Shown: positions 2,968 to 31,925 of the stretch, in pieces
Layout: each line of letters starts with the position of its first letter
Numbering within the stretch: the stretch's first letter is position 1
Source of the DNA: Bacillota bacterium
Lineage (GTDB): Bacteria > Bacillota > Clostridia > Peptostreptococcales > Anaerovoracaceae
NCBI GenBank assembly: GCA_030526325.1
Contig: JAUNCY010000001.1
Location: forward strand, 1 to 58,162
Length of the DNA stretch: 58,162 bases
Reading direction: 5' to 3'
Translations under genes and position numbers: made by a program
The notes under the pieces: model-generated
The model's database searches: none
Seen by the model: the letters and a program-made list of their open reading frames with translations, nothing else
What the model was told of the DNA's origin: nothing

Positions 2968-3197
2968 AAGAGAGTCCGGACCGCACGCCTGACCTGGTCT
3001 TTGACCCCACACCCGCCTGCTGGAGGGTTCGCAAAAGGGTCGCTTTTACTACTGCCCCTCTCGGTATATCCGGCAGGACTTACTTCTAAACCGCGCCATG
3101 CTCACCGTCCGCCCTTTTGCGGCCGGCTTACGTGGATCCCTTCGCCCGCGACTGGCCTGGACTTTCAACCACAGACACGTGCGGTCCGGGCTCTCTT
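2968..3197 (-). ncRNA. raiA-type structured noncoding RNA upstream of hpf
   Basis: About 225 G+C-rich bases between comFC and hpf. The ends pair over 17 bases (2971-2987 with 3178-3194, one G-U) and the interior is full of short complementary G/C arms, while no reading frame fits. The raiA RNA motif is known from Firmicutes and Actinobacteria as a conserved, complex RNA directly upstream of hpf/raiA on the same strand, which is exactly this position and size. The assignment rests on location, size and closing stem rather than on a covariance-model score. SRP RNA and RNase P RNA were considered, but their signature sequences are absent. The 5' end lies next to the comFC stop, so it may be co-transcribed or use a promoter inside comFC. 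Confidence 0.72.
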
Positions 3198-18690: not shown

Positions 18691-21099
18691 TCAGTCTCTG
18701 TCCGCCATTCCGTAATGCATTTCGGTATATCTTACAGCATCCATCGCATCAGGAGAGTATCTGTCGGCACCGATCATGTTTGCGTATTCCTCTGTCAGCA
18801 CAGCCCCTCCCACCATGACCTTTATATCTCTGCCGGTTTCTCTTATTAATTTTATTGTCTCCTCCATTGAAGGCACGGTTGTTGTCATCAGAGCACTCAG
18901 CCCCACCAGGCTGCATTGTTTTTCTAAGGCGCAGTCTCTTATGGTCTCAGGAGCAACATCTTTGCCCAGATCTATTACATTAAAGCCGTAACTCTGGAGC
19001 AGAACCTTTACGATATTTTTGCCGATATCGTGAATATCTCCCTTTACAGTAGCAAGTATCACACTTTTTCCGCTGTCCTCTCCTGCAGACGGAAGGGCGG
19101 TTTTTATGACATCGAAAGCCGCCGATGCCGCCTCCGCGCTCATGAGGAGCTGAGGCAGATATGCTCTTTTCTCTTCAAAATCCCTGCCTATTTCATTTAA
19201 AGCCGGAACTATTGAATTATTAATAATATCAAGAGGTTTTTCCATTTTCAGAATTAACGAGGCCGCCTTTACCGCCTTATCTCTGAAGCCTTTAATGACG
19301 CAGTATTTCAAATCCTCTTCGCTTCCCGAAGAGCCGTTCTTTTCACTTTTTTTATCGGCCGTTCCTGCCGGTGCAGCCGTAAGTTCCGCTCTCTGCTCAG
19401 CATATTCTATATAATTCATGCAGCTTTTATCAAAGCCCTTAAGCGCCCTGAAGGCATGATATACATCCATCATCGAAGCCGAGAACGGATTCATAATAGC
19501 GCAGCTCATTCCCTGTTCCAGCGCATTTGCAAAGAAAACAGAGTTTATTATATCTCTTTTCGGCAGTCCGAAGGAAATGTTTGACACTCCCATGCTGGTT
19601 TTGATGCCCATGGATTTAAGTGTCTTTACGACCTCCAGGGCAACTGCCGCGCTTTCCTGATTTGACGAAATAGTCATAGCCAGAGGGTCAACAATAATGT
19701 CTTTTTTGTCTATTCCGTACTCTTCAGCCTTCTTCACTATGTCCAGCGCAATCTCTATTCTGCCTTCGGCAGTTTCCGGAATACCGTCCTCTCCTATAGT
19801 GAGAGCTATTACCGTTCCTCCGTATTTTTTAACGAGAGGGAAAATCTCCTCCATCACCTTTTTCTTTCCGTTTACCGAATTAACAAGAGGCTTTCCGTTG
19901 TATACACGCATTCCCGCTTCCATTGCCTCCGGGTCAGAGGTGTCTATCTGCAGAGGAAGGGCTGTTACCGACTGGATTTCCTTAACTGCATCAGCCATCA
20001 TAGAAACCTCGTCAATTTCCGGGAGTCCCACGTTTACATCTAAAATATGTGCTCCCGCCTCCTCCTGACTTACCGCTTCGCCCAGAATATAGTCCATATC
20101 TCCGTTCCTCAAAGCCTCCTTAAGCTTTGATTTGCCGGTAGGATTAATTCTCTCGCCTATCAGGACGGGATCCTCTCCGATAACCACCGCATGGGTATAC
20201 GATGAGACAAGTGTATGGTTTTTCTTTTCCGGCAGGACATACTCAACCGCAGCAGTCCTCTCTGCCATTTTTCTGATATGCTCCGGAGTTGTTCCGCAGC
20301 AGCCTCCGAGAATCGTTCCTCCCCGGCGGGCAAGCTCTTCCATATAATCAGCAAACTCGTCCGGTCCAATGCTGAATCTTGTCTCTCCGTTTACAACCTC
20401 CGGCATTCCCGCATTCGGTTTTATAATCAGAGGAACTGATGCATATTCCCTGAATTCTCCTATTATTTCCAGCATCCTGTCCGGTCCGAATGAGCAGTTC
20501 ATACCCAGAGCATCTACTCCCAGCCCCTCAAGCATGGCAATCATTGCTGCAGGAGTGGCTCCGGTCATAAGTCTTCCTCTTTCATCATAGGCATTTGTTA
20601 CGAAAACAGGAAGATTACAGTTTTCCTTTGCCGCAATAACAGCGGCCTTTGTTTCATAGGCATCGTTCATTGTTTCAATAACGATAAGATCGGCTCCGCC
20701 TGCCGCAGCAGCCTTCACATTATCGGCAAAAATCGATACCGCCTCTTCAAAAGGCAGATTTCCCAGAGGCTCCAGCATCTTTCCGAGAGGTCCGATGTCA
20801 AATGCCACAAACCTGTCATCATAGCCTTCGGCAGCTTTTTTTGCGCACTGTATTCCGGCTTTTATAAGTTCCTCATAGTTTTCGAATTTTTCCCTGTTTA
20901 TTCCGAAAGTGTTGGTGAGCACTATGTTGCTTCCCGCTTCAAAATACGCCCTGTGCAGGCTTTCTATTCTGTCCGGATGCTCTATGTTCCATTTTTCGGG
21001 AGACTCTCCCGGCTCTATTCCCATGCTCTGAAGCACAGTTCCGGTTCCTCCGTCAAAAAATATTCTCTTTTGCTTTATTAATTCAATCAGTTTACTCAT
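18691..21099 (-). CDS. metH: Cobalamin-dependent methionine synthase lacking the reactivation domain
   Basis: 802 residues. The order is: homocysteine methyltransferase barrel (about 1-290) with zinc-ligand segments ALGMNCSFGPD and GGCCGTTPEHI; methyltetrahydrofolate-binding barrel (about 310-560, with GERINPTGKSKLKEAL and QIDTSDPEAMEAG); helical cap plus B12-binding domain (about 600-802) with the cobalt-ligand motif GDIHDIGKNIV. The C-terminal AdoMet-binding activation domain of E. coli MetH (1227 residues in total) is missing; a separate activation-domain protein is encoded immediately upstream, overlapping by 8 bases. The gene belongs to a metF, activation-domain, metH operon that supplies methionine. 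Confidence 0.94.
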   Translation of the reverse strand: MSKLIELIKQKRIFFDGGTGTVLQSMGIEPGESPEKWNIEHPDRIESLHRAYFEAGSNIVLTNTFGINREKFENYEELIKAGIQCAKKAAEGYDDRFVAFDIGPLGKMLEPLGNLPFEEAVSIFADNVKAAAAGGADLIVIETMNDAYETKAAVIAAKENCNLPVFVTNAYDERGRLMTGATPAAMIAMLEGLGVDALGMNCSFGPDRMLEIIGEFREYASVPLIIKPNAGMPEVVNGETRFSIGPDEFADYMEELARRGGTILGGCCGTTPEHIRKMAERTAAVEYVLPEKKNHTLVSSYTHAVVIGEDPVLIGERINPTGKSKLKEALRNGDMDYILGEAVSQEEAGAHILDVNVGLPEIDEVSMMADAVKEIQSVTALPLQIDTSDPEAMEAGMRVYNGKPLVNSVNGKKKVMEEIFPLVKKYGGTVIALTIGEDGIPETAEGRIEIALDIVKKAEEYGIDKKDIIVDPLAMTISSNQESAAVALEVVKTLKSMGIKTSMGVSNISFGLPKRDIINSVFFANALEQGMSCAIMNPFSASMMDVYHAFRALKGFDKSCMNYIEYAEQRAELTAAPAGTADKKSEKNGSSGSEEDLKYCVIKGFRDKAVKAASLILKMEKPLDIINNSIVPALNEIGRDFEEKRAYLPQLLMSAEAASAAFDVIKTALPSAGEDSGKSVILATVKGDIHDIGKNIVKVLLQSYGFNVIDLGKDVAPETIRDCALEKQCSLVGLSALMTTTVPSMEETIKLIRETGRDIKVMVGGAVLTEEYANMIGADRYSPDAMDAVRYTEMHYGMADRD

Positions 21100-21703
21100 A
21101 TTTTATCCCCATAATTGCAGTAACGGATTTTGAAGGTGTCATAAAACACGATTCGTTAAGGCTGATTCCGAGAGTCTTTTCCGCGTTTATTCTTTCAGTC
21201 AGCAGCCTCTGATATTTAATGTCGCAGTCACCGTATCCCGGACTGTATCTTGGTCTGCATACTCCGCCGTTCCCTGCCTTCACGGCTTCTCTCAGCGACA
21301 GATCCACCATATCGCAGAAGGATTCCACAGCAGCCGAAGCCAGAGCGTCAGTAATAAAATGCTCCGCAGGAGATTTTATCCCGAGGGTTCTAAGCAGCCT
21401 GTCTATACCTGCCCCCAGAGTCACCCCCATCATATACGCCTCCCGGCATTCTCTGAGATTTTTATACAGATCACGGCTTTCTATAATCCCGCATCCGAAA
21501 TCACATACTCCCTCCTCGGGAAATGTCAGCTCCATTCTGGCCCAGGCATACCGGTAAGACACCTTTCCGTCGAAAACATTTTTGCAGGACTTCACCTCAG
21601 GAAGCTCCAGGCTGCCGCCTCCTGCCCTTCGCAGAAATTCCCCCGGGTCTATTTTTACTTTTTCAGGCTCCTCCGAGCCGTAAACCACATCAGTATAAAT
21701 CAT
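21092..21703 (-). CDS. Stand-alone methionine synthase reactivation domain protein
   Basis: 203 residues resembling the C-terminal AdoMet-binding domain of MetH. RPRYSPGYGDCDI and FMTPSKSVTAIMGI near the C-terminus are the signature of that domain (E. coli has RxxxGYPACPDH and SxAVSG-type segments). It would donate a methyl group from AdoMet to rescue oxidised cob(II)alamin in MetH. It overlaps metF by four bases (ATGA) and metH by eight, so production is tightly linked to its partner. Such split MetH systems are known in Clostridia and Thermotoga. Confidence 0.85.
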   Translation of the reverse strand: MIYTDVVYGSEEPEKVKIDPGEFLRRAGGGSLELPEVKSCKNVFDGKVSYRYAWARMELTFPEEGVCDFGCGIIESRDLYKNLRECREAYMMGVTLGAGIDRLLRTLGIKSPAEHFITDALASAAVESFCDMVDLSLREAVKAGNGGVCRPRYSPGYGDCDIKYQRLLTERINAEKTLGISLNESCFMTPSKSVTAIMGIKYE

Positions 21704-22560
21704 TTTATTATTTCCGAAAGATTGTTTTTAATTGCTTCGGCAACATCAGGCTTGTTCATGGAATATACATGAACGGCATTTACTCCGTTTGCATACAAAT
21801 CAATTATCTGTTCTGTAGCATAAGCAATTCCAGCCTGCTTCATAGCCTCCGGCCTGTCCCCGTATCGGTCTACTATTCTGACAAATCTCTGAGGCAGAGC
21901 TGTTTTGGATATGTCGCAGATTCTTTTCATCTGAGCCGCGTTTGTAACAGGCATTATTCCTGCGACAACCGGCACATCTATTCCTGCTTTCAGCATTCTG
22001 TACATGAAATTATACAGTATGTTGTTGTCGAAAAACATTTGGGTGGTGAAGAACTCACAGCCGGCCTCCGCCTTCACCCTCAGGTATTCCAGGTCCTTTG
22101 CACTGTTTTCGCTCTCCGGATGAGTTTCCGGATAGCAGGCTCCGCCTATGCAGAAGTCCCCGGTTTCTTTTATCTCTTTTACGAGATCACAGGCATATCT
22201 GTATTCCATATTCTCCACGGAAAACTCCTCGGGAATATCCCCTCTGAGAGCCAGGATGTTTTCAATTCCAAGACTTTTAAGTTTTTCCAGCTCGCTTCTT
22301 ATCATTTCTCTCGTTGAAGAAACACAGGTAAGATGAGCCATAGAAGTAACTCCGCATTTCATGAGTCTGGAGGTTATATCAGCAGTGTACATGGACGTTC
22401 CGCCTCCCGCTCCGTATGTAACGCTCATGAAATCCGGCTTCAGTGACGCAATTTTCTCCGCAGCCTCAACAACATTTTCGTATTTATCGCTTGTCTTGGG
22501 AGGAAAAACCTCAAAAGACAGACTGGGTTTTTCTCCTTTAATAATATCTATAATTTTCAT
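21700..22560 (-). CDS. metF: Methylenetetrahydrofolate reductase
   Basis: 286 residues, one TIM-barrel domain. The start LSFEVFPPKTSDKYENVVEAAEKIASLKPDFMSVTYGAGG, and motifs HLTCVSS, LALRGDIP and FFTTQMFFDN are family hallmarks; the FAD-binding residues are in these segments. It reduces methylene-THF to methyl-THF, the methyl donor for MetH encoded downstream. First gene of the operon; ATG 22560 is preceded by GAGGTACGAA. A TATAAT-like -10 lies 30-40 bases upstream without a clear -35. Confidence 0.95.
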   Translation of the reverse strand: MKIIDIIKGEKPSLSFEVFPPKTSDKYENVVEAAEKIASLKPDFMSVTYGAGGGTSMYTADITSRLMKCGVTSMAHLTCVSSTREMIRSELEKLKSLGIENILALRGDIPEEFSVENMEYRYACDLVKEIKETGDFCIGGACYPETHPESENSAKDLEYLRVKAEAGCEFFTTQMFFDNNILYNFMYRMLKAGIDVPVVAGIMPVTNAAQMKRICDISKTALPQRFVRIVDRYGDRPEAMKQAGIAYATEQIIDLYANGVNAVHVYSMNKPDVAEAIKNNLSEIIK

Positions 22561-22973: not shown

Positions 22974-23915
22974 CTATTTTTCGCTGTCTGCGCATCTTTT
23001 AAGCAGATCTTCCCATTTTTTGTCCACGTGTTTCTGTGTTTCCTCTATCGTCCATTCGTTTCCGGGCTTGAACATGTGTGAAAACCGGCCCTGTCTGGAA
23101 AGAAATTCTTCCACAGGAAGCTTTTTCTTCGGTTCATAGGTAAGTCTCCATACGCCGTCCTCTATTTCGAACATCGGCCATACACAGGTTTCAACCGCCA
23201 GCCGGCACATTTCCGCAATGTTCTCTGTGTTGTAGCCCCAGCCTCTCGGACAGGGTGCAAGGATGTTAATGAAATTGGCTCCCTTAATATATATTGCCTT
23301 GTGAGCTTTTTCGTGAAGGTCTTTCATGTTTCCCAGAAATGTAGTCTGTGCCGCATAGGGAACTCCGTGAGCCGCCACTATCATGGTCAAATCCTTCTTG
23401 TTCTCTCTCTTTCCCGGCAGATCGTGTCCCGCAGGAGATGTTGTGGCATCCGCGAACCTCGGTGTGGATGAAGATCTCTGAATACCGGTGTTCATGTATG
23501 CCTCGTTGTCATAACACACATATACCATGTCATGGCCTCTTTCAAGGGCTCCCGACAGAGACTGAAGACCGATATCATAGGTTCCTCCGTCGCCTCCGAA
23601 GGTAATGAATTTGAAATTTTCTTTTACCTTGCCTTTTCTTTTCAGCACCCTGTAGGCGGCTTCAACGCCGGATGTGGTTGCTGCTGCATTTTCAAAAGCG
23701 CTGTGTATATAACTGTCCTCGTATGCGGTGTAGGGATACATAAAAGTCGAAACCTCCAGGCAGCTGGTTGCATTTGTTATAACCGCCTTGTCCTCCGGAT
23801 TCAGGGCTCTGAGGACACCTCTTACCGCTATGCCCGCTCCGCAGCCGGCGCAAAGTCTGTGGCCGCCGGCGAGTCTGTCTTTTTTTGATACTTCTTTCTT
23901 TAAATCATATGCCAT
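22974..23915 (-). CDS. porB: 2-oxoacid:ferredoxin oxidoreductase, beta subunit
   Basis: 313 residues carrying the thiamine diphosphate site. RLCAGCGAGIAVRG near 20-33 provides cluster-binding cysteines, and FGGDGGTYDIGLQSLSGALERG with YDNEAYMNTGIQRSS is the Mg-TPP region. With PorG, PorD and PorA it forms the four-subunit enzyme that interconverts a 2-oxoacid plus CoA with an acyl-CoA, CO2 and reduced ferredoxin. Sequence supports the pyruvate/2-oxoacid family; the substrate is not certain. Last gene of porG-porD-porA-porB, followed by a terminator. The isoleucine-type T-box upstream hints at a role in branched-chain amino acid synthesis. Confidence 0.9.
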   Translation of the reverse strand: MAYDLKKEVSKKDRLAGGHRLCAGCGAGIAVRGVLRALNPEDKAVITNATSCLEVSTFMYPYTAYEDSYIHSAFENAAATTSGVEAAYRVLKRKGKVKENFKFITFGGDGGTYDIGLQSLSGALERGHDMVYVCYDNEAYMNTGIQRSSSTPRFADATTSPAGHDLPGKRENKKDLTMIVAAHGVPYAAQTTFLGNMKDLHEKAHKAIYIKGANFINILAPCPRGWGYNTENIAEMCRLAVETCVWPMFEIEDGVWRLTYEPKKKLPVEEFLSRQGRFSHMFKPGNEWTIEETQKHVDKKWEDLLKRCADSEK

Positions 23916-23920
23916 AGCTC

Positions 23921-25192
23921 TTATACCTCATAAGCTTCTCTGTCTTTGCCGTAATTTCTTGCAGCACCCTGATGGTATTCTTCTTCCATCATTCTCTGCT
24001 CTTCCGTGGTGTATCTTGAGTCTCTTACGCCGAGATATCTGTATACGTCTCCCGGATCATCGTTTTCGCAGATAACGTATAAATCCTTAAAAATATCGTA
24101 AAAGTCTTCTACTCTGATGTCTCTTCCGCCCAGGCCGTAAATATAGTTGATTGCGTACGGCTTGTCCGGCAGATCATATAATGAGCTTCTTGCTTCGTTG
24201 AACAGAGGTCCGCCGCTGTTCGAAAAGCTTTCCGCCTTGTCCATAATAGCAACCGCCTTTACCTTGCACATTGCCGCAGCCAGCGGTCTTCTGGGGAATG
24301 GTCTGAATACTCTCAGCTTTATCAGCCCGACTTTTTTGCCTTCGGCTCTGAGACGGTCGACAGCCTCTTTCCCGGTGCCTGCGCTTGAGCCCATAACCAC
24401 CAGGGCAACATCAGCGTCGTCCATCATGTATTCCTCAAAGAATCTGTATTTTCTTCCGGTCATGGCTTCAAACTTCTTAGCCACGTCCAGAATTACGGGC
24501 ATGGAGTCCTTCATTGCCTGAGCCTGTTCTCTCTTGACCTCCATATAATACGGAGAAGTTCCGTAAGGGCCCACCGCCAGAGGATTTTCAGCCTTAAGCA
24601 GGTAGTTTTCCGGCTCGTATTCTCCTACGAATTCTTTTACCTTCTCATCTTCTATGAGCTCTATGTTAGAAACTCCGTGACTGGTAATAAATCCGTCCTG
24701 GCACACCATAATAGGTATTCTGCATCTTTCGGAAATGATTACCGCCTGAATAAAGTTGTCGTATACCTCCTGATTTGTTTCAGCATATATCTGTATCCAT
24801 CCGGAATCTCTGGCCCCCATAGAATCGGAATGGTCATTGTTAATATTAATAGGACCGGATAAAGCCCTGTTTACAACAGCCATTGTAATAGGCAATCTGG
24901 AGGATGCCGCTACGTAAAGCAGTTCCCACATATATGCCAGCCCCGCAGAAGATGTGGCTGTCATTGCTCTTGCGCCGGCAGCCGAGGCTCCTATGCAGGT
25001 GGACATTGCGCTGTGCTCAGATTCAACAGCGATAAATTCCGTATCCACCAGCCCGTCCGCAACGTATTTAGAAAAATATTCCGGAATTTCTGTGGAAGGT
25101 GTAATAGGGAAAGCTCCCACCACGTCCGGGTTTATCTGTTTCATGGCATAAGCCACTGCTGCATTTCCTGATTTTCTGTCTCTTATTGCCAC
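23921..25192 (-). CDS. porA: 2-oxoacid:ferredoxin oxidoreductase, alpha subunit
   Basis: 423 residues: N-terminal pyrimidine-binding domain with GNAAVAYAMKQINPDVVGAF, PITPSTEIPE and SEHSAMSTCIGASAAGARA, and a C-terminal transketolase-like domain including VVMGSSAGTGKEAVDRLR. It completes the TPP active site with PorB. The start is GTG at 25192, with GGAGGG eight bases upstream, three bases after the porD stop. Length and motifs fit PorA. Confidence 0.92.
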   Translation of the reverse strand: MAIRDRKSGNAAVAYAMKQINPDVVGAFPITPSTEIPEYFSKYVADGLVDTEFIAVESEHSAMSTCIGASAAGARAMTATSSAGLAYMWELLYVAASSRLPITMAVVNRALSGPININNDHSDSMGARDSGWIQIYAETNQEVYDNFIQAVIISERCRIPIMVCQDGFITSHGVSNIELIEDEKVKEFVGEYEPENYLLKAENPLAVGPYGTSPYYMEVKREQAQAMKDSMPVILDVAKKFEAMTGRKYRFFEEYMMDDADVALVVMGSSAGTGKEAVDRLRAEGKKVGLIKLRVFRPFPRRPLAAAMCKVKAVAIMDKAESFSNSGGPLFNEARSSLYDLPDKPYAINYIYGLGGRDIRVEDFYDIFKDLYVICENDDPGDVYRYLGVRDSRYTTEEQRMMEEEYHQGAARNYGKDREAYEV

Positions 25193-25195
25193 GTT

Positions 25196-25501
25196 CTAGC
25201 CCTCCTTTACCATATCTATAGCGCCGAAAGGGCATACCTTTGAGCAAATGCCGCAGCCCTTGCAGTGCATGTAGTCAAAACCTTTCACGCTTCCGTCTGT
25301 TATCTCCACAGAGCTGTCCGGGCAGTACAGAAAACACATCATGCAGTTTTTACATTTTTCTTCTGCGAAAACAGGTCTGTTCACTCTCCATTCGCCTGTA
25401 TTAACAAGTTTTGAAGTGGCAGGTTCGTATATTTCAGCCCCTATGGTCAGTTCCTGCCAGGTAGATTTTTCATTTATATCCTGAGCTCTTTTCTTTCTCA
25501 T
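25196..25501 (-). CDS. porD: 2-oxoacid:ferredoxin oxidoreductase, delta (ferredoxin) subunit
   Basis: 101 residues with two ferredoxin-type cysteine motifs, CKNCMMCFLYCP and CKGCGICSKVCP, for two 4Fe-4S clusters. The N-terminal extension (TWQELTIGAEIYEPATSKLVNTGEWRVNRP) matches PorD. It carries electrons from the TPP/cluster centre to ferredoxin. Its ATG overlaps the porG stop (ATGA). Confidence 0.93.
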   Translation of the reverse strand: MRKKRAQDINEKSTWQELTIGAEIYEPATSKLVNTGEWRVNRPVFAEEKCKNCMMCFLYCPDSSVEITDGSVKGFDYMHCKGCGICSKVCPFGAIDMVKEG

Positions 25502-26085
25502 CAGTCCGCTTTAAACTCCTTTAATGTTCTCTTAAGTGCCTGCATATTTCCTTCTACCAGATGAGGTTTTGTAGGGAATTTCTTCCTGAAGGATTCTTCC
25601 ATGTCTTTAATAAACTGCTCTGTTTCAATAACTTTGCTTACCTTGACAGCCGCAGCCAGCATAGGCGTATTAGGGAAATACTTTCCGAGGGTTTCCACAG
25701 AGATTTTCTCAGCATCCACAGTGCAGATTTTTCCGTCGTAAGCGCCGTTCAGCTCTTCCCTGATTTCGTTTGCGGTTCTGTGAGTGTTGATGATAAGAGC
25801 TCCGTCTCTGCTGAGTCCCTTTGTAACATTTACTGTCTTCAGTAATGTCTCATCCACTACTACCACATAATCCGGATTGTATATATTCGAATGAACTTTG
25901 CAGTGAGAATCCGAAATTCTGTTGTATGCAGTTATTGGCGCTCCCATTCTCTCCGGACCGTATTCAGGAAATCCCTGAACGTCTTTTCCCGAATTGAATG
26001 CAGCCTCTGCCAGAAACAGGCAGGCTGTTTTAGCACCCTGGCCGCCTCTTCCGTGCCATCTGAATTCCACCATATTATTGCACAT
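25501..26085 (-). CDS. porG: 2-oxoacid:ferredoxin oxidoreductase, gamma subunit
   Basis: 194 residues. The family start VEFRWHGRGGQGAKTAC lies at about 5-21, with FPEYGPERMGAPITAYNRIS further on. ATG 26085 (MCNNMVEFRW) was chosen because AAGGAGG lies nine bases upstream; the longer frame would start inside the T-box terminator. First gene of the porGDAB operon and separated from a strong promoter by a T-box leader, so transcription should rise when the matching tRNA is uncharged. Confidence 0.92.
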   Translation of the reverse strand: MCNNMVEFRWHGRGGQGAKTACLFLAEAAFNSGKDVQGFPEYGPERMGAPITAYNRISDSHCKVHSNIYNPDYVVVVDETLLKTVNVTKGLSRDGALIINTHRTANEIREELNGAYDGKICTVDAEKISVETLGKYFPNTPMLAAAVKVSKVIETEQFIKDMEESFRKKFPTKPHLVEGNMQALKRTLKEFKAD

Positions 26086-26108: not shown

Positions 26109-26377
26109 AAAAAGACTTCGTCCCGTAAAGAGACGAAGCCGTAAATCTTCGCTGTACCACTCTATACTATATACGGACATACCATCATATGTCTTCTCTG
26201 TCACGGGAGAACCCGTCAAAGCCTACTTTCATGAACTGACGATTTCGGTTTGCAACTCAGGAGTGATTTTCGGTTAAATACTACTTGTATCAGGCTTCCA
26301 GCATCCCCGACTCTCTATAACTTTCATAGATAACTTACTCTCTCCGTCAAAGTCTTTATAGTCTGTATTTACTTTTC
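26109..26377 (-). promoter_or_regulatory. T-box riboswitch upstream of porGDAB, probably isoleucine-specific
   Basis: The T-box sequence AGAGTGGTACAGCG lies at 26163-26150 and a terminator hairpin with T run at 26140-26109. Stem I is recognisable: GGAGAGAGTAA on the 5' side, GGGGATGCTGGAAGCC in the distal part, and GAAAATCACTCC on the specifier side. Aligned to known T-boxes, the triplet before the conserved A-CTCC is ATC (isoleucine, 26267-26265); the alternative AAT (asparagine) has an atypical following base. The UGGU bulge pairs with discriminator A, which fits tRNA-Ile and not tRNA-Asn (G in bacteria). Uncharged tRNA-Ile would prevent termination and raise por expression. Confidence 0.88.
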
Positions 26378-28307: not shown

Positions 28308-29534
28308 TTAATATCTGTTGTCAAACACTCTTGTTGATTTTTTCTCGCTTCTGGGCAGATCTCCCAGATCCACCGGCTTAACAATAGGAGTCATTCCTAT
28401 TCTGGATTTGAAGTCGGAAATCAGCTGACTTTCCACAGCATATTTGTTCGCGCCTGCTTCAACCTCCACAAACAGAGTCAGCAGGTCTTTTCCGTTTATG
28501 TGGTCTATCATAATCTGAAATTCGCTTGAAGCTCCCTCAACCGATTTGAGCAGTTCATCCACCTGACTGGGGAAAATATTTACTCCCTTTACCTTTACCA
28601 TGTCATCGGTTCTTCCCAGAATAGTATCTATCCTCGGATATTTTGAACCGCATTTACATTCTCCGGGAATCTTTCTGGACAGGTCATGGGTTCTGTATCT
28701 GATGAGAGGAGCTCCCTGTTTTCTAAGTGTTGTAATTACTATTTCCCCTATTTCACCGTCAGGTACAGGTTCTCCGGTCTTAGGATCAACGATTTCTATG
28801 TACACGAAATCGTCCCAGTAATGCATTCCGCATTCATAATCACAGCTGATCGCAATTCCCGGGCCGTATACTTCTGTGAGACCGTAAACATCATATAACG
28901 TTACGCCTAGCTCTGCAGCTATTCTTTTTCTCATTTTTTCGCCCCATCTTTCTGAGCCGATTATTCCTTTTCTGAGACATATGCTGTCACCCACTCCTCT
29001 TTTAGCGATTTCCTCCGCAAGGAGAAGCGCATATGAAGAAGTAGCGCACAGTACAGTGGATTTCATATCCTGCATCATTCTTATCTGCTTGTCAGTGTTT
29101 CCCGGTCCCATAGGAATGGTCATTGCGCCGATGCTTTCAGCACCGTTCTGGAAGCCTATGCCCGCGGTCCACAGACCGTAGCCCGGGGTGATATGTATTC
29201 TGTCCCGGTTCGTTACTCCCGCCATTTTATAGCATCTGCCGAACTGCAGCGCCCAGTCATCCACGTCCTGCTTTGTATAAGGAATGATAACCGGTGTACC
29301 CGTTGTTCCCGAAGAAGAATGGATTCTTACAATCTCCTCCTCCGGCACAGCCATGAGTCCGAGAGGATATGCCTCCCTCAGGTCTCCCTTCCAGGTGAAA
29401 GGCAGTTTTCTGAAATCTTCTTCGTTCTGAATTCCGGCAACGTCTATTCCTTCGAATTTTTTCTTATAAAAACAGTCTTTGCTCGTCAGCTTTATAAGCT
29501 GTTCCTTAATTAATTGAAACTGTGTGTCATTCAT
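28308..29534 (-). CDS. paaK: Phenylacetate-CoA ligase
   Basis: 408 residues of the AMP-forming acyl-CoA ligase family. The phosphate-loop motif is IRIHSSSGTTGTPVIIPYTKQDV-like (about 90-105); YDVYGLTEVYGPGIAISCDYE and the hinge plus lysine region GRTDDMVKVKGVNIFPSQVDELL are present. It makes arylacetyl-CoA from phenylacetate or indoleacetate plus ATP and CoA, or could run in reverse to conserve energy. It lies four bases after iorB, which fits oxidation of aryl-pyruvates to arylacetyl-CoA and on to arylacetates in amino acid fermentation. Confidence 0.93.
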   Translation of the reverse strand: MNDTQFQLIKEQLIKLTSKDCFYKKKFEGIDVAGIQNEEDFRKLPFTWKGDLREAYPLGLMAVPEEEIVRIHSSSGTTGTPVIIPYTKQDVDDWALQFGRCYKMAGVTNRDRIHITPGYGLWTAGIGFQNGAESIGAMTIPMGPGNTDKQIRMMQDMKSTVLCATSSYALLLAEEIAKRGVGDSICLRKGIIGSERWGEKMRKRIAAELGVTLYDVYGLTEVYGPGIAISCDYECGMHYWDDFVYIEIVDPKTGEPVPDGEIGEIVITTLRKQGAPLIRYRTHDLSRKIPGECKCGSKYPRIDTILGRTDDMVKVKGVNIFPSQVDELLKSVEGASSEFQIMIDHINGKDLLTLFVEVEAGANKYAVESQLISDFKSRIGMTPIVKPVDLGDLPRSEKKSTRVFDNRY

Positions 29535-29538
29535 TCTT

Positions 29539-30117
29539 TTATCCTCTCATTCCAAGCTCAAAAGCCTTTTTATTAAGTTCATGAAGTTTTTCCGGAAGTC
29601 TTTTCAGCAGAGCGTCCAGGGTCTCCTCAGGAGTTATTCCCAAAGCTCCGCTCTTTATGGCAGCTCCCAGCAGCACTACATTCAAAACCTTGTCGGATCC
29701 GCATTCGGCGCAGATTCTTTCTCCGTCCACTATTATTATGTTTTCTGCAGCCTTTTTCAGGTAATCCACCATTTCATGACCGCTGTATGAGGAATTTGTC
29801 AGAGCCGCGGTAACGGGCATTACGGATTTGCTGCTCACCACAACGGTTCCGCCTTTTTTCAGATACTTAATATTTCTTACAGCCTCTCCCGGCTCAAACC
29901 CTATTATCACATCCGCCTTTCCCAGAGGAATTATAGGTGAATGGATATCCTTTCCCGTTCTGACGTATGAAGTGACCGGGCCGCCTCTCTGGGCCATGCC
30001 TATGGTTTCCGTGGTCTTGACCTCTTCTCCTTTTGCTATGGCAGCCGCAGCCAGAACCTTCGCGGCCAGGACTGTTCCCTGACCTCCTACTCCGCAGAGC
30101 AGATAATTCATATTCAC
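29539..30117 (-). CDS. iorB: Indolepyruvate:ferredoxin oxidoreductase, beta subunit
   Basis: 192 residues: YLLCGVGGQGTVLAAKVL at the start and MAQRGGPVTSYVRTG are typical of IorB, which corresponds to the gamma subunit of Por-type enzymes. Works with IorA to convert aryl-pyruvates (from Trp, Phe, Tyr) to arylacetyl-CoA with ferredoxin reduction. ATG overlaps the iorA stop by four bases. Confidence 0.93.
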   Translation of the reverse strand: MNMNYLLCGVGGQGTVLAAKVLAAAAIAKGEEVKTTETIGMAQRGGPVTSYVRTGKDIHSPIIPLGKADVIIGFEPGEAVRNIKYLKKGGTVVVSSKSVMPVTAALTNSSYSGHEMVDYLKKAAENIIIVDGERICAECGSDKVLNVVLLGAAIKSGALGITPEETLDALLKRLPEKLHELNKKAFELGMRG

Positions 30118-31925
30118 TTACGGTCACCCCCCTCTTTTGAAATCGCATTTACAGGGCATACAGTCTCACAGATTCCGCAGCCGAAACACATGGATTTTTC
30201 TATAAATACTTTTCCGTCCCTCAGCACAATAGCCGGGCAACCAAGCTCTTTTATACATTTCCTGCAGTTAATACAGAGATTTTCATTAATAACCTCCCTT
30301 TGAGCAGGTTTTGTAACCGCAATGCAGGGCGATTTGAAGATTACAGCCTTGACGCCCTTTTCCTCAGCGATTTTTTTAATTATCTCAATCGAATTCTCTA
30401 GATCCAGGGGATCTGCTTTTACCACTGTCCTGACTCCCATACCTCTGAGCACCGTCTCAGGGTCGACACATCTGACAATATCTCCCATCATCGTTTTCCC
30501 CGTTCCCGGATGAGGCTGGTGACCGGTCATGGCCGTTGTGGAATTGTCCAGCAGAACAATGGTTATATTGGCCTGATTATATACCGCATTCACCACTCCT
30601 GTCATGCCCGAGGCAAAGAAAGTGGAGTCTCCGATAAAACCGAAACTGTAAACATCTTCCTCCGCGTGCGCAAATCCCTGAGCCATGGTCAGACCTGCAC
30701 CCATGCAGAGACAGGTATCAACCATGTCCAGCGGAGCCGCATTCCCGAGGGTATAGCAGCCGATATCTCCGCAGTATCTGGTTTTCTTTCCCTCCATCGC
30801 CTTCTTAACTGCATAGAACGAAGCCCTGTGAGGACATCCCGGGCACAGCACCGGAGGTCTTTCCGGAAGCACCGGGGCTTCAATATCGTCAGAAGCACCC
30901 GAAACAGCCGGCTTCTCTTCGCCCAGAAATTCCGCGATGCTTTCCGACACCTTGTCCGCCGTGTTCTCTCCCGCGTTTACGGTATTTCCCGTGAGCTTTC
31001 CGTATACCTTCACACTTTTTCCGTATTTTCCGCATACATAAGTGATTTCTCTTTCCAGTACAGGATCCAGTTCCTCCACTGCAAGTACCGAATCAAGTCC
31101 TTCCAGAAATTCCAGCGCAAGCTTCTCCGGGAAAGGATTTGCCGTGGCAGCCTTGAAAATTTTAATATCCTGCCTTTCCCCTACTGCCTCTTTTACATAT
31201 TCATAGCTGACACCTCCGGTTATAATTCCTTTAGTTCCGGAGCCGGACACGGTATTGAATCTGTATGTACTGAAATCCTCCGCTATCTCCGTAAGCTTTT
31301 TTTCAAGCTTAATGTGATTTGCATAAGACATTTTAGGAAATATTACCCATTTTTCCGAATCCTTTACAAACCCTTCCACAGGTCTGTCTTCCGCCTCTCC
31401 GGAAATTTCCACGGTCTGATAGCCGTGACAGATTCTTGTAGTCGGCCGCATGAACACCGGTTCCCCGTATTTTTCCGAATACTCGAAGGCATCCTGTATC
31501 ATAAGATAAGCTTCCTTAGGAGAGGAAGGGTCGAAAACCATCATTTTTGCAAACTGCGCAAAATGCCTGGTATCCTGCTCTGTCTGAGAAGATATCGGGC
31601 CGGGATCGTCTGCAACGAGAATTACCATTCCGCCCTTTATTCCCACATAATTCAGACTCATAAGAGGGTCCGCCGCCACATTCAGGCCAACCTGCTTCAT
31701 GGTCACCAGGGTTCTGGCTCCCGCATATGCTGCTCCGGCGCCCACCTCAAGGGCAGCCTTCTCGTTTACCGACCACTCCACATGTATATTTCCTTTGTTA
31801 TTTTTCGCTATTGTTTCAAGAACCTCCGTCGAAGGGGTTCCCGGATATCCGCAAACCATTTTCACTCCCGCCTTTATGGCGCCGAGAGCGATGGCTTCAT
31901 TGCCCATGATCAGTTGTTCGGACAT
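30114..31925 (-). CDS. iorA: Indolepyruvate:ferredoxin oxidoreductase, alpha subunit
   Basis: 603 residues, full length. N-terminal domain with GNEAIALGAIKAG, CGYPGTPSTEV and VEWSVNEKAALEVGAGAAYAGAR; TPP-binding domain around 350-480 with CPGCPHRA, GDIGCYTLG, GFIGDSTFFASG and LLDNSTTAMTGHQPHPG; C-terminal ferredoxin-type domain with CINCRKCIKELGCP and CFGCGICETVCP. First gene of iorA-iorB-paaK with a promoter at 31972-32000. This is a classic amino-acid-fermenting enzyme of anaerobes. Confidence 0.95.
   Translation of the reverse strand: MSEQLIMGNEAIALGAIKAGVKMVCGYPGTPSTEVLETIAKNNKGNIHVEWSVNEKAALEVGAGAAYAGARTLVTMKQVGLNVAADPLMSLNYVGIKGGMVILVADDPGPISSQTEQDTRHFAQFAKMMVFDPSSPKEAYLMIQDAFEYSEKYGEPVFMRPTTRICHGYQTVEISGEAEDRPVEGFVKDSEKWVIFPKMSYANHIKLEKKLTEIAEDFSTYRFNTVSGSGTKGIITGGVSYEYVKEAVGERQDIKIFKAATANPFPEKLALEFLEGLDSVLAVEELDPVLEREITYVCGKYGKSVKVYGKLTGNTVNAGENTADKVSESIAEFLGEEKPAVSGASDDIEAPVLPERPPVLCPGCPHRASFYAVKKAMEGKKTRYCGDIGCYTLGNAAPLDMVDTCLCMGAGLTMAQGFAHAEEDVYSFGFIGDSTFFASGMTGVVNAVYNQANITIVLLDNSTTAMTGHQPHPGTGKTMMGDIVRCVDPETVLRGMGVRTVVKADPLDLENSIEIIKKIAEEKGVKAVIFKSPCIAVTKPAQREVINENLCINCRKCIKELGCPAIVLRDGKVFIEKSMCFGCGICETVCPVNAISKEGGDRK

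Follow-up and report, generated by a model that had tools for sequence, protein, structure and literature searches.

Isoleucine synthesis depends on 2-oxobutyrate, a need that sets isoleucine apart from valine and leucine. 2-Oxobutyrate synthase is classified as EC 1.2.7.2. Reductive carboxylation of propionyl-CoA to 2-ketobutyrate has been described in several anaerobes (Buchanan 1969, Eikmanns 1983 and Monticello 1984, as cited in PMC7476758), and pyruvate formate-lyase (PFL) may account for some of the reports of this activity (PMC7476758). Two other described systems bear on the present locus: T-box leaders of the isoleucine class (RF00230), such as those before ileS, and the archaeal-type PorGDAB pyruvate synthases (NF040682 and NF008819; solved structure 9bt4). 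T-boxes, isoleucine specificity and the propionyl-CoA reaction are already known singly; within the literature searched, no link among them was found. We found no description of an isoleucine T-box before an oxidoreductase in the parts of the literature that are searchable, and ferredoxin is not mentioned in the accessible main text of Wels 2008, TBDB 2020, Sun 2013 or a review of Clostridium difficile riboswitches.

Here we describe a porGDAB operon, encoding a 2-oxoacid:ferredoxin oxidoreductase (OFOR), that lies directly downstream of an isoleucine T-box leader. The operon is found in a stretch of 58,162 nucleotides (the window) from contig JAUNCY010000001.1 of a MAG (1.82 Mb, 96% complete) belonging to the clostridial family Anaerovoracaceae (Table 1). 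The por leader shares with ileS-type T-boxes the AUC specifier, Stem I, the antiterminator/terminator arrangement and the UGGU sequence, but it stands before an OFOR rather than a synthetase, a branched-chain amino acid (BCAA) biosynthesis enzyme or a transporter, and the ACC half of its antiterminator bulge is degenerate. The operon resembles the archaeal-type pyruvate synthases in subunit make-up and fold families; it differs from them in scoring below the equivalog cut-offs, in its predicted regulation by isoleucine and in having asparagine in a loop where 9bt4 has tryptophan. With 2-oxobutyrate synthase it shares the proposed reaction, carboxylation of propionyl-CoA, and the proposed role in isoleucine synthesis.

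Table 1. Features of the por locus, with positions in the window
Feature	Position	Strand	Evidence
Isoleucine T-box leader, RF00230	26126..26359	-	cmscan, 100.9 bits (gathering 93)
Specifier codon AUC (Ile)	26265..26267	-	Covariance-model alignment
Antiterminator bulge UGGUACA; UGGU half predicted to pair with tRNA ACCA, discriminator A	26153..26159	-	Covariance-model alignment, fold
Intrinsic terminator, 11-bp hairpin and U run	26109..26140	-	Fold -16.9 kcal/mol, z = -6.7
porG, gamma subunit	25501..26085	-	PF01558; TIGR02175, 218 bits; ATG at 26085 after AAGGAGG
porD, delta subunit, 2x[4Fe-4S]	25196..25501	-	TIGR02179, 105 bits (cut-off 60)
porA, alpha subunit	23921..25192	-	PF01855 and PF17147; closest solved chain 9bt4_B, PFOR alpha
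porB, beta subunit (ThDP)	22974..23915	-	PF02775; closest solved chain 9bt4_C

An earlier, sequence-only reading of this DNA had placed a T-box sequence, a terminator and stem I before porGDAB, had taken ATC (Ile) as the best specifier and had named a covariance-model fit as a check. Both assignments were borne out. The match to RF00230 spans the full length of the model (E = 4e-21), and the covariance-model alignment reads AUC at the specifier position, the 3′ side of the specifier loop being GAA-A-AUC-A-CUCC, with the usual purine after the codon. A 51-nt segment (26120-26170, reverse strand) folds as an antiterminator in which AGAG/CUCU and GCGAAG/CUUCGU helices surround the 7-nt bulge, and the segment 26100-26140 on the same strand folds as the terminator hairpin followed by U5. 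The CUUCGUCUC strand is used by both structures, so the two folds are mutually exclusive. In the bulge, ACA takes the place of the canonical ACC in the second half. ACC at this position is a near-universal feature of T-boxes rather than a strict definition of them. The GTG at 26160 falls within the T-box and does not serve as the start of porG. Immediately after porG come porD, porA and porB. Sequence and conservation together establish the anatomy of the leader and its isoleucine specificity.

The sequence-only reading had also argued that UGGU predicts discriminator A and so fits tRNA-Ile and not the alternative, asparagine. The asparagine half of this argument stood: an Asn specifier is excluded because the tRNA-Asn of the source genome carries discriminator G73, which would need a UGGC bulge. 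The tRNA-Ile(GAU) gene, and with it the discriminator, was not recovered in the MAG. The rule that relates bulge to discriminator holds for the genome's Trp (UGGC/G73), Thr (UGGA/U73) and Leu (UGGU/A73) T-boxes. The source genome has eight T-boxes including the por leader, and those of isoleucine specificity precede only ileS and por. A Leu T-box precedes ilvB, the first gene of the operon ilvB-ilvN-ilvD-leuA-leuC-leuD-leuB-ilvC; Trp T-boxes precede an ABC transporter gene, a TrpB-like gene and trpE; a Thr T-box precedes thrS; and a Met T-box precedes an O-acetylhomoserine sulfhydrylase-like gene (downstream genes were named by inspection of their translations, except ilvA, ilvB, ilvC and leuA). 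All seven other T-boxes have the canonical ACC half, against which the relaxed second half of the bulge in por T-boxes is a further variant feature.

Some 50 related clostridial por operons have T-box leaders. A PorA search found the por clade in 58 of 149 genomes of the source family (57 at >440 bits and one fragment). Among about 40 por loci inspected in this family, 24, the window included, have a T-box with AUC; species of one genus (g5, see below) contributed six more. Outside the family, 80 clostridial loci yielded about 19 with a T-box before por, among them loci from Syntrophomonadaceae, Desulfoscipio, Gelria, Lachnospiraceae and Faecalicatena contorta. The specifier is AUC in all 48 readable por T-boxes (42 by pattern and six more). 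All 41 fully read bulges have UGGU; ACC follows it in one of these 41, and also in L196 and L197. About 45 por T-boxes combine an invariant UGGU with a degenerate second half of the bulge (ACA, AUA, UUA, UUG and others). Leader and AUC are kept over PorA identities of 60-97% and on several branches of the PorA tree. On that tree (n = 141) the T-box label is clustered, needing 12 changes compared with 41 in shuffles, and lies on several separate branches. This scatter is consistent with repeated recruitment and loss, on a FastTree phylogeny that has local support only and does not tell gains from losses. The leaders of the remote branches (L102, L196 and L197) have the canonical UGGUACC that main-clade leaders lack, which suggests that isoleucine T-boxes may have been recruited to por independently.

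Several leaders are incomplete. Upstream of porG at L090 (genome G035), the T-box no longer has Stem I and the specifier but retains stem III, the terminator and a remnant of the antiterminator (GGCGGCACAG); G035 is among the few genomes of the source family with citramalate synthase. In the Lachnospiraceae loci L165 and L207, Stem I and AUC are intact and no UGGN antiterminator is recognisable; these leaders may be decaying T-boxes or may serve another mode of control. At L160, Stem I lies beyond the contig end. L187, from a record titled as a Desulfosudis oleivorans MAG, has a por operon nested among Syntrophomonadaceae and Desulfoscipio sequences. Of its T-box only a weak remnant is left, and the locus may reflect transfer or a mis-binned contig.

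All four Por proteins match families of POR-type OFORs, with gamma, delta, alpha and beta subunits and the ThDP and Fe-S domains. Models of VOR scored lower than models of POR, and the pyruvate synthase equivalog cut-offs (NF040682, NF008819) were missed (PorA, 479.6 versus 550 bits; PorB, 362 versus 405 bits). The closest solved chains of PorA and PorB are those of the four-subunit pyruvate:ferredoxin oxidoreductase 9bt4 and of oxalate oxidoreductase. These matches place the enzyme among the POR/VOR types, a class assignment that does not fix the substrate. In the substrate loop of PorA (residues 107-121), the por clade has NRALxGPINI-N-xDHS where 9bt4 has NRAVSAPINI-W-NDHQ, and some groups without a T-box have H at the N/W position. 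Alignment places this loop over the R114 region of PFOR, and it may have a part in setting substrate size.

A separate single-chain PFOR exists in addition to por. Neighbour or operon context was rejected as evidence of substrate, because por stands alone and its flanking genes vary among loci; at the loci compared, the neighbours were not conserved, and a link of por to a propionate-activating gene was not found. After por and a gap of 414 bp, the region 18691-22560 (reverse strand) holds a metF-like gene and encodes a small protein resembling an activation domain and a MetH-like protein of 802 aa, possibly a split methionine synthase. At 28308-31925 (reverse strand), iorA, iorB and a phenylacetate-CoA ligase-like gene lie side by side, possibly a reductive route from aryl acids to aromatic amino acids that would parallel the one proposed for por. 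The window also holds a raiA RNA (RF03072) at 2980-3185 (reverse strand; 181 bits).

The distribution of por follows that of ilvC. Among the 149 family genomes, ilvC was present in 53 of the 58 with the por clade and in 52 of the 91 without it (Fisher p = 6e-6); in genomes at least 95% complete the counts were 19/19 and 16/35 (p = 4e-5), and both p-values ignore kinship and are thus optimistic. Every T-box-por genome has ilvC (24/24 in the family survey and 6/6 in g5, 30/30 together). Three genomes at least 90% complete (G068, G082 and G142) have ilvC without ilvA and cimA, and all three carry por. Family-wide, por and ilvA often occur together: por is present in 43 of the 91 ilvC-positive genomes with ilvA or cimA, and its enrichment in ilvC-positive genomes lacking these genes gave p = 0.08.

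The relation between por and ilvA was followed within two genera. In g5, the genus of G142 (17 species), all nine por-positive species have ilvC and none has a full-length ilvA; the three ilvA-positive species all lack por; three ilvC-negative species have neither gene; and two fragmented MAGs with ilvC also have neither. CimA is absent from all 17 species. The exclusion of por and ilvA has p = 0.027, uncorrected for kinship among these related species, and the TdcB-like dehydratases of G156 count against a clean exclusion. The genus of G068 (g68), with por and ilvA scored in 49 species, was rejected as a second case: ilvA is lacking in 24 of the 30 por-positive species and present in six (one a fragment), compared with 4 of the 19 por-negative species. 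No T-box was found before por in the g68 loci examined. PorA from these loci (L240-L250 and L022) is 84-87% identical to that of the window and lies beside T-box-bearing sister clades, an apparent loss of isoleucine control.

The source genome itself encodes IlvA (TIGR02079, 624.7 bits; cut-off 440.6), so por is not its only source of 2-oxobutyrate; a sole-source role, rejected on this ground, had been suggested by TIGR01127, which alone scored the protein below its cut-off. None of the eight T-boxes of the genome precedes ilvA. No source-genome protein scored above the cut-off for citramalate synthase, and LeuA of the BCAA operon was rejected as a CimA candidate (leuA_bact, 701 bits; citramalate synthase, 228 bits, cut-off 450). 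Here por is likely to act as an additional source that depends on propionate, alongside IlvA. The picture for replacement of ilvA/cimA by por is mixed: clear in g5 and absent in the source genome, and g68 shows no exclusion.

We infer the substrate and direction of por from its regulation and gene co-occurrence. Isoleucine-only control, the restriction of T-box-por to genomes with ilvC and the exchange with ilvA within g5 make 2-oxobutyrate the simplest product, and we consider it likely that por is a reductive 2-oxobutyrate synthase under a tRNA-Ile T-box, acting beside threonine deaminase or replacing it. By analogy with the T-box family, the leader would switch in response to tRNA, reading the charging state of tRNA-Ile(GAU) and acting on transcription. 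The ACCA end of uncharged tRNA-Ile would pair with the UGGU bulge, the antiterminator would form and porGDAB would be transcribed; with charged tRNA-Ile the terminator would form. At isoleucine shortage, PorGDAB would carboxylate propionyl-CoA with CO2 and reduced ferredoxin, and the 2-oxobutyrate would proceed to isoleucine via AHAS (ilvBN), ilvC and ilvD. The route would stand in for threonine deaminase or run alongside it. IlvA and CimA yield the product proposed for por, yet they are unrelated enzymes; in g5, IlvA is the one exchanged with por. The wider proposal, that 2-oxobutyrate synthesis is the dedicated role of the por clade and that por is the gene set of the propionyl-CoA route of 1969, with a variant Ile T-box of relaxed bulge recruited more than once, we hold at about even.

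Pyruvate synthases supply the nearest models and solved chains, and por accompanies ilvC, as might be expected if it made pyruvate from acetyl-CoA and CO2, induced at isoleucine shortage, to feed branched-chain synthesis. We regard this as unlikely. Pyruvate is needed most for valine and leucine, yet the readable specifiers are all Ile and none is Leu or Val; single-chain PFORs are already present, so that pyruvate does not require por; and the exchange with ilvA in g5 would be left unexplained. Somewhat less probable still is carboxylation of 2-methylbutyryl-CoA, which would give 3-methyl-2-oxopentanoate, the immediate precursor of isoleucine. Membership of the POR/VOR group and the formation of isoleucine from alpha-methylbutyrate in Clostridium sporogenes (Monticello 1984, a title cited in PMC7476758) would fit such a reaction. 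It is disfavoured because it bypasses ilvBN, ilvC and ilvD, so that ilvC would be dispensable, yet T-box-por occurs only in ilvC-positive genomes and the ilvC-negative species of g5 lack por; the lower scores of the VOR models also speak against it. The suggestion in the sequence-only reading that the enzyme runs reductively toward isoleucine, from either propionyl-CoA or 2-methylbutyryl-CoA, thus gains support from ilvC co-occurrence and from ilvA replacement in g5 for the propionyl-CoA option and loses ground for the other.

Archaeal POR and VOR enzymes act oxidatively in amino acid fermentation, and por could likewise be a catabolic 2-oxoacid oxidoreductase with an incidental or inherited T-box; there is a por clade that lacks the T-box, and in G118 even ilvC is missing. 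However, inducing the breakdown of isoleucine or 2-oxobutyrate at isoleucine shortage would be self-defeating, and the leader and its AUC have been retained over wide PorA divergence. We consider a catabolic role very improbable.

Few signals show from sequence alone what a gene does in biosynthesis, and T-box specifiers belong to them. Pyruvate synthase is the routine annotation for OFORs, whose substrates sequence does not reveal, and here a conserved isoleucine T-box points to a specific assignment. We found no gene assigned to conversion of propionyl-CoA to 2-oxobutyrate in the accessible parts of the literature searched. The por operon would be a gene candidate for the activity of 1969, whose molecular basis is debated, PFL being proposed for some species in a 2020 eLife paper. 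If por has the role proposed here, many gut and anaerobic Clostridia are predicted to build isoleucine, with fixation of CO2, from propionate, a main product of gut fermentation.
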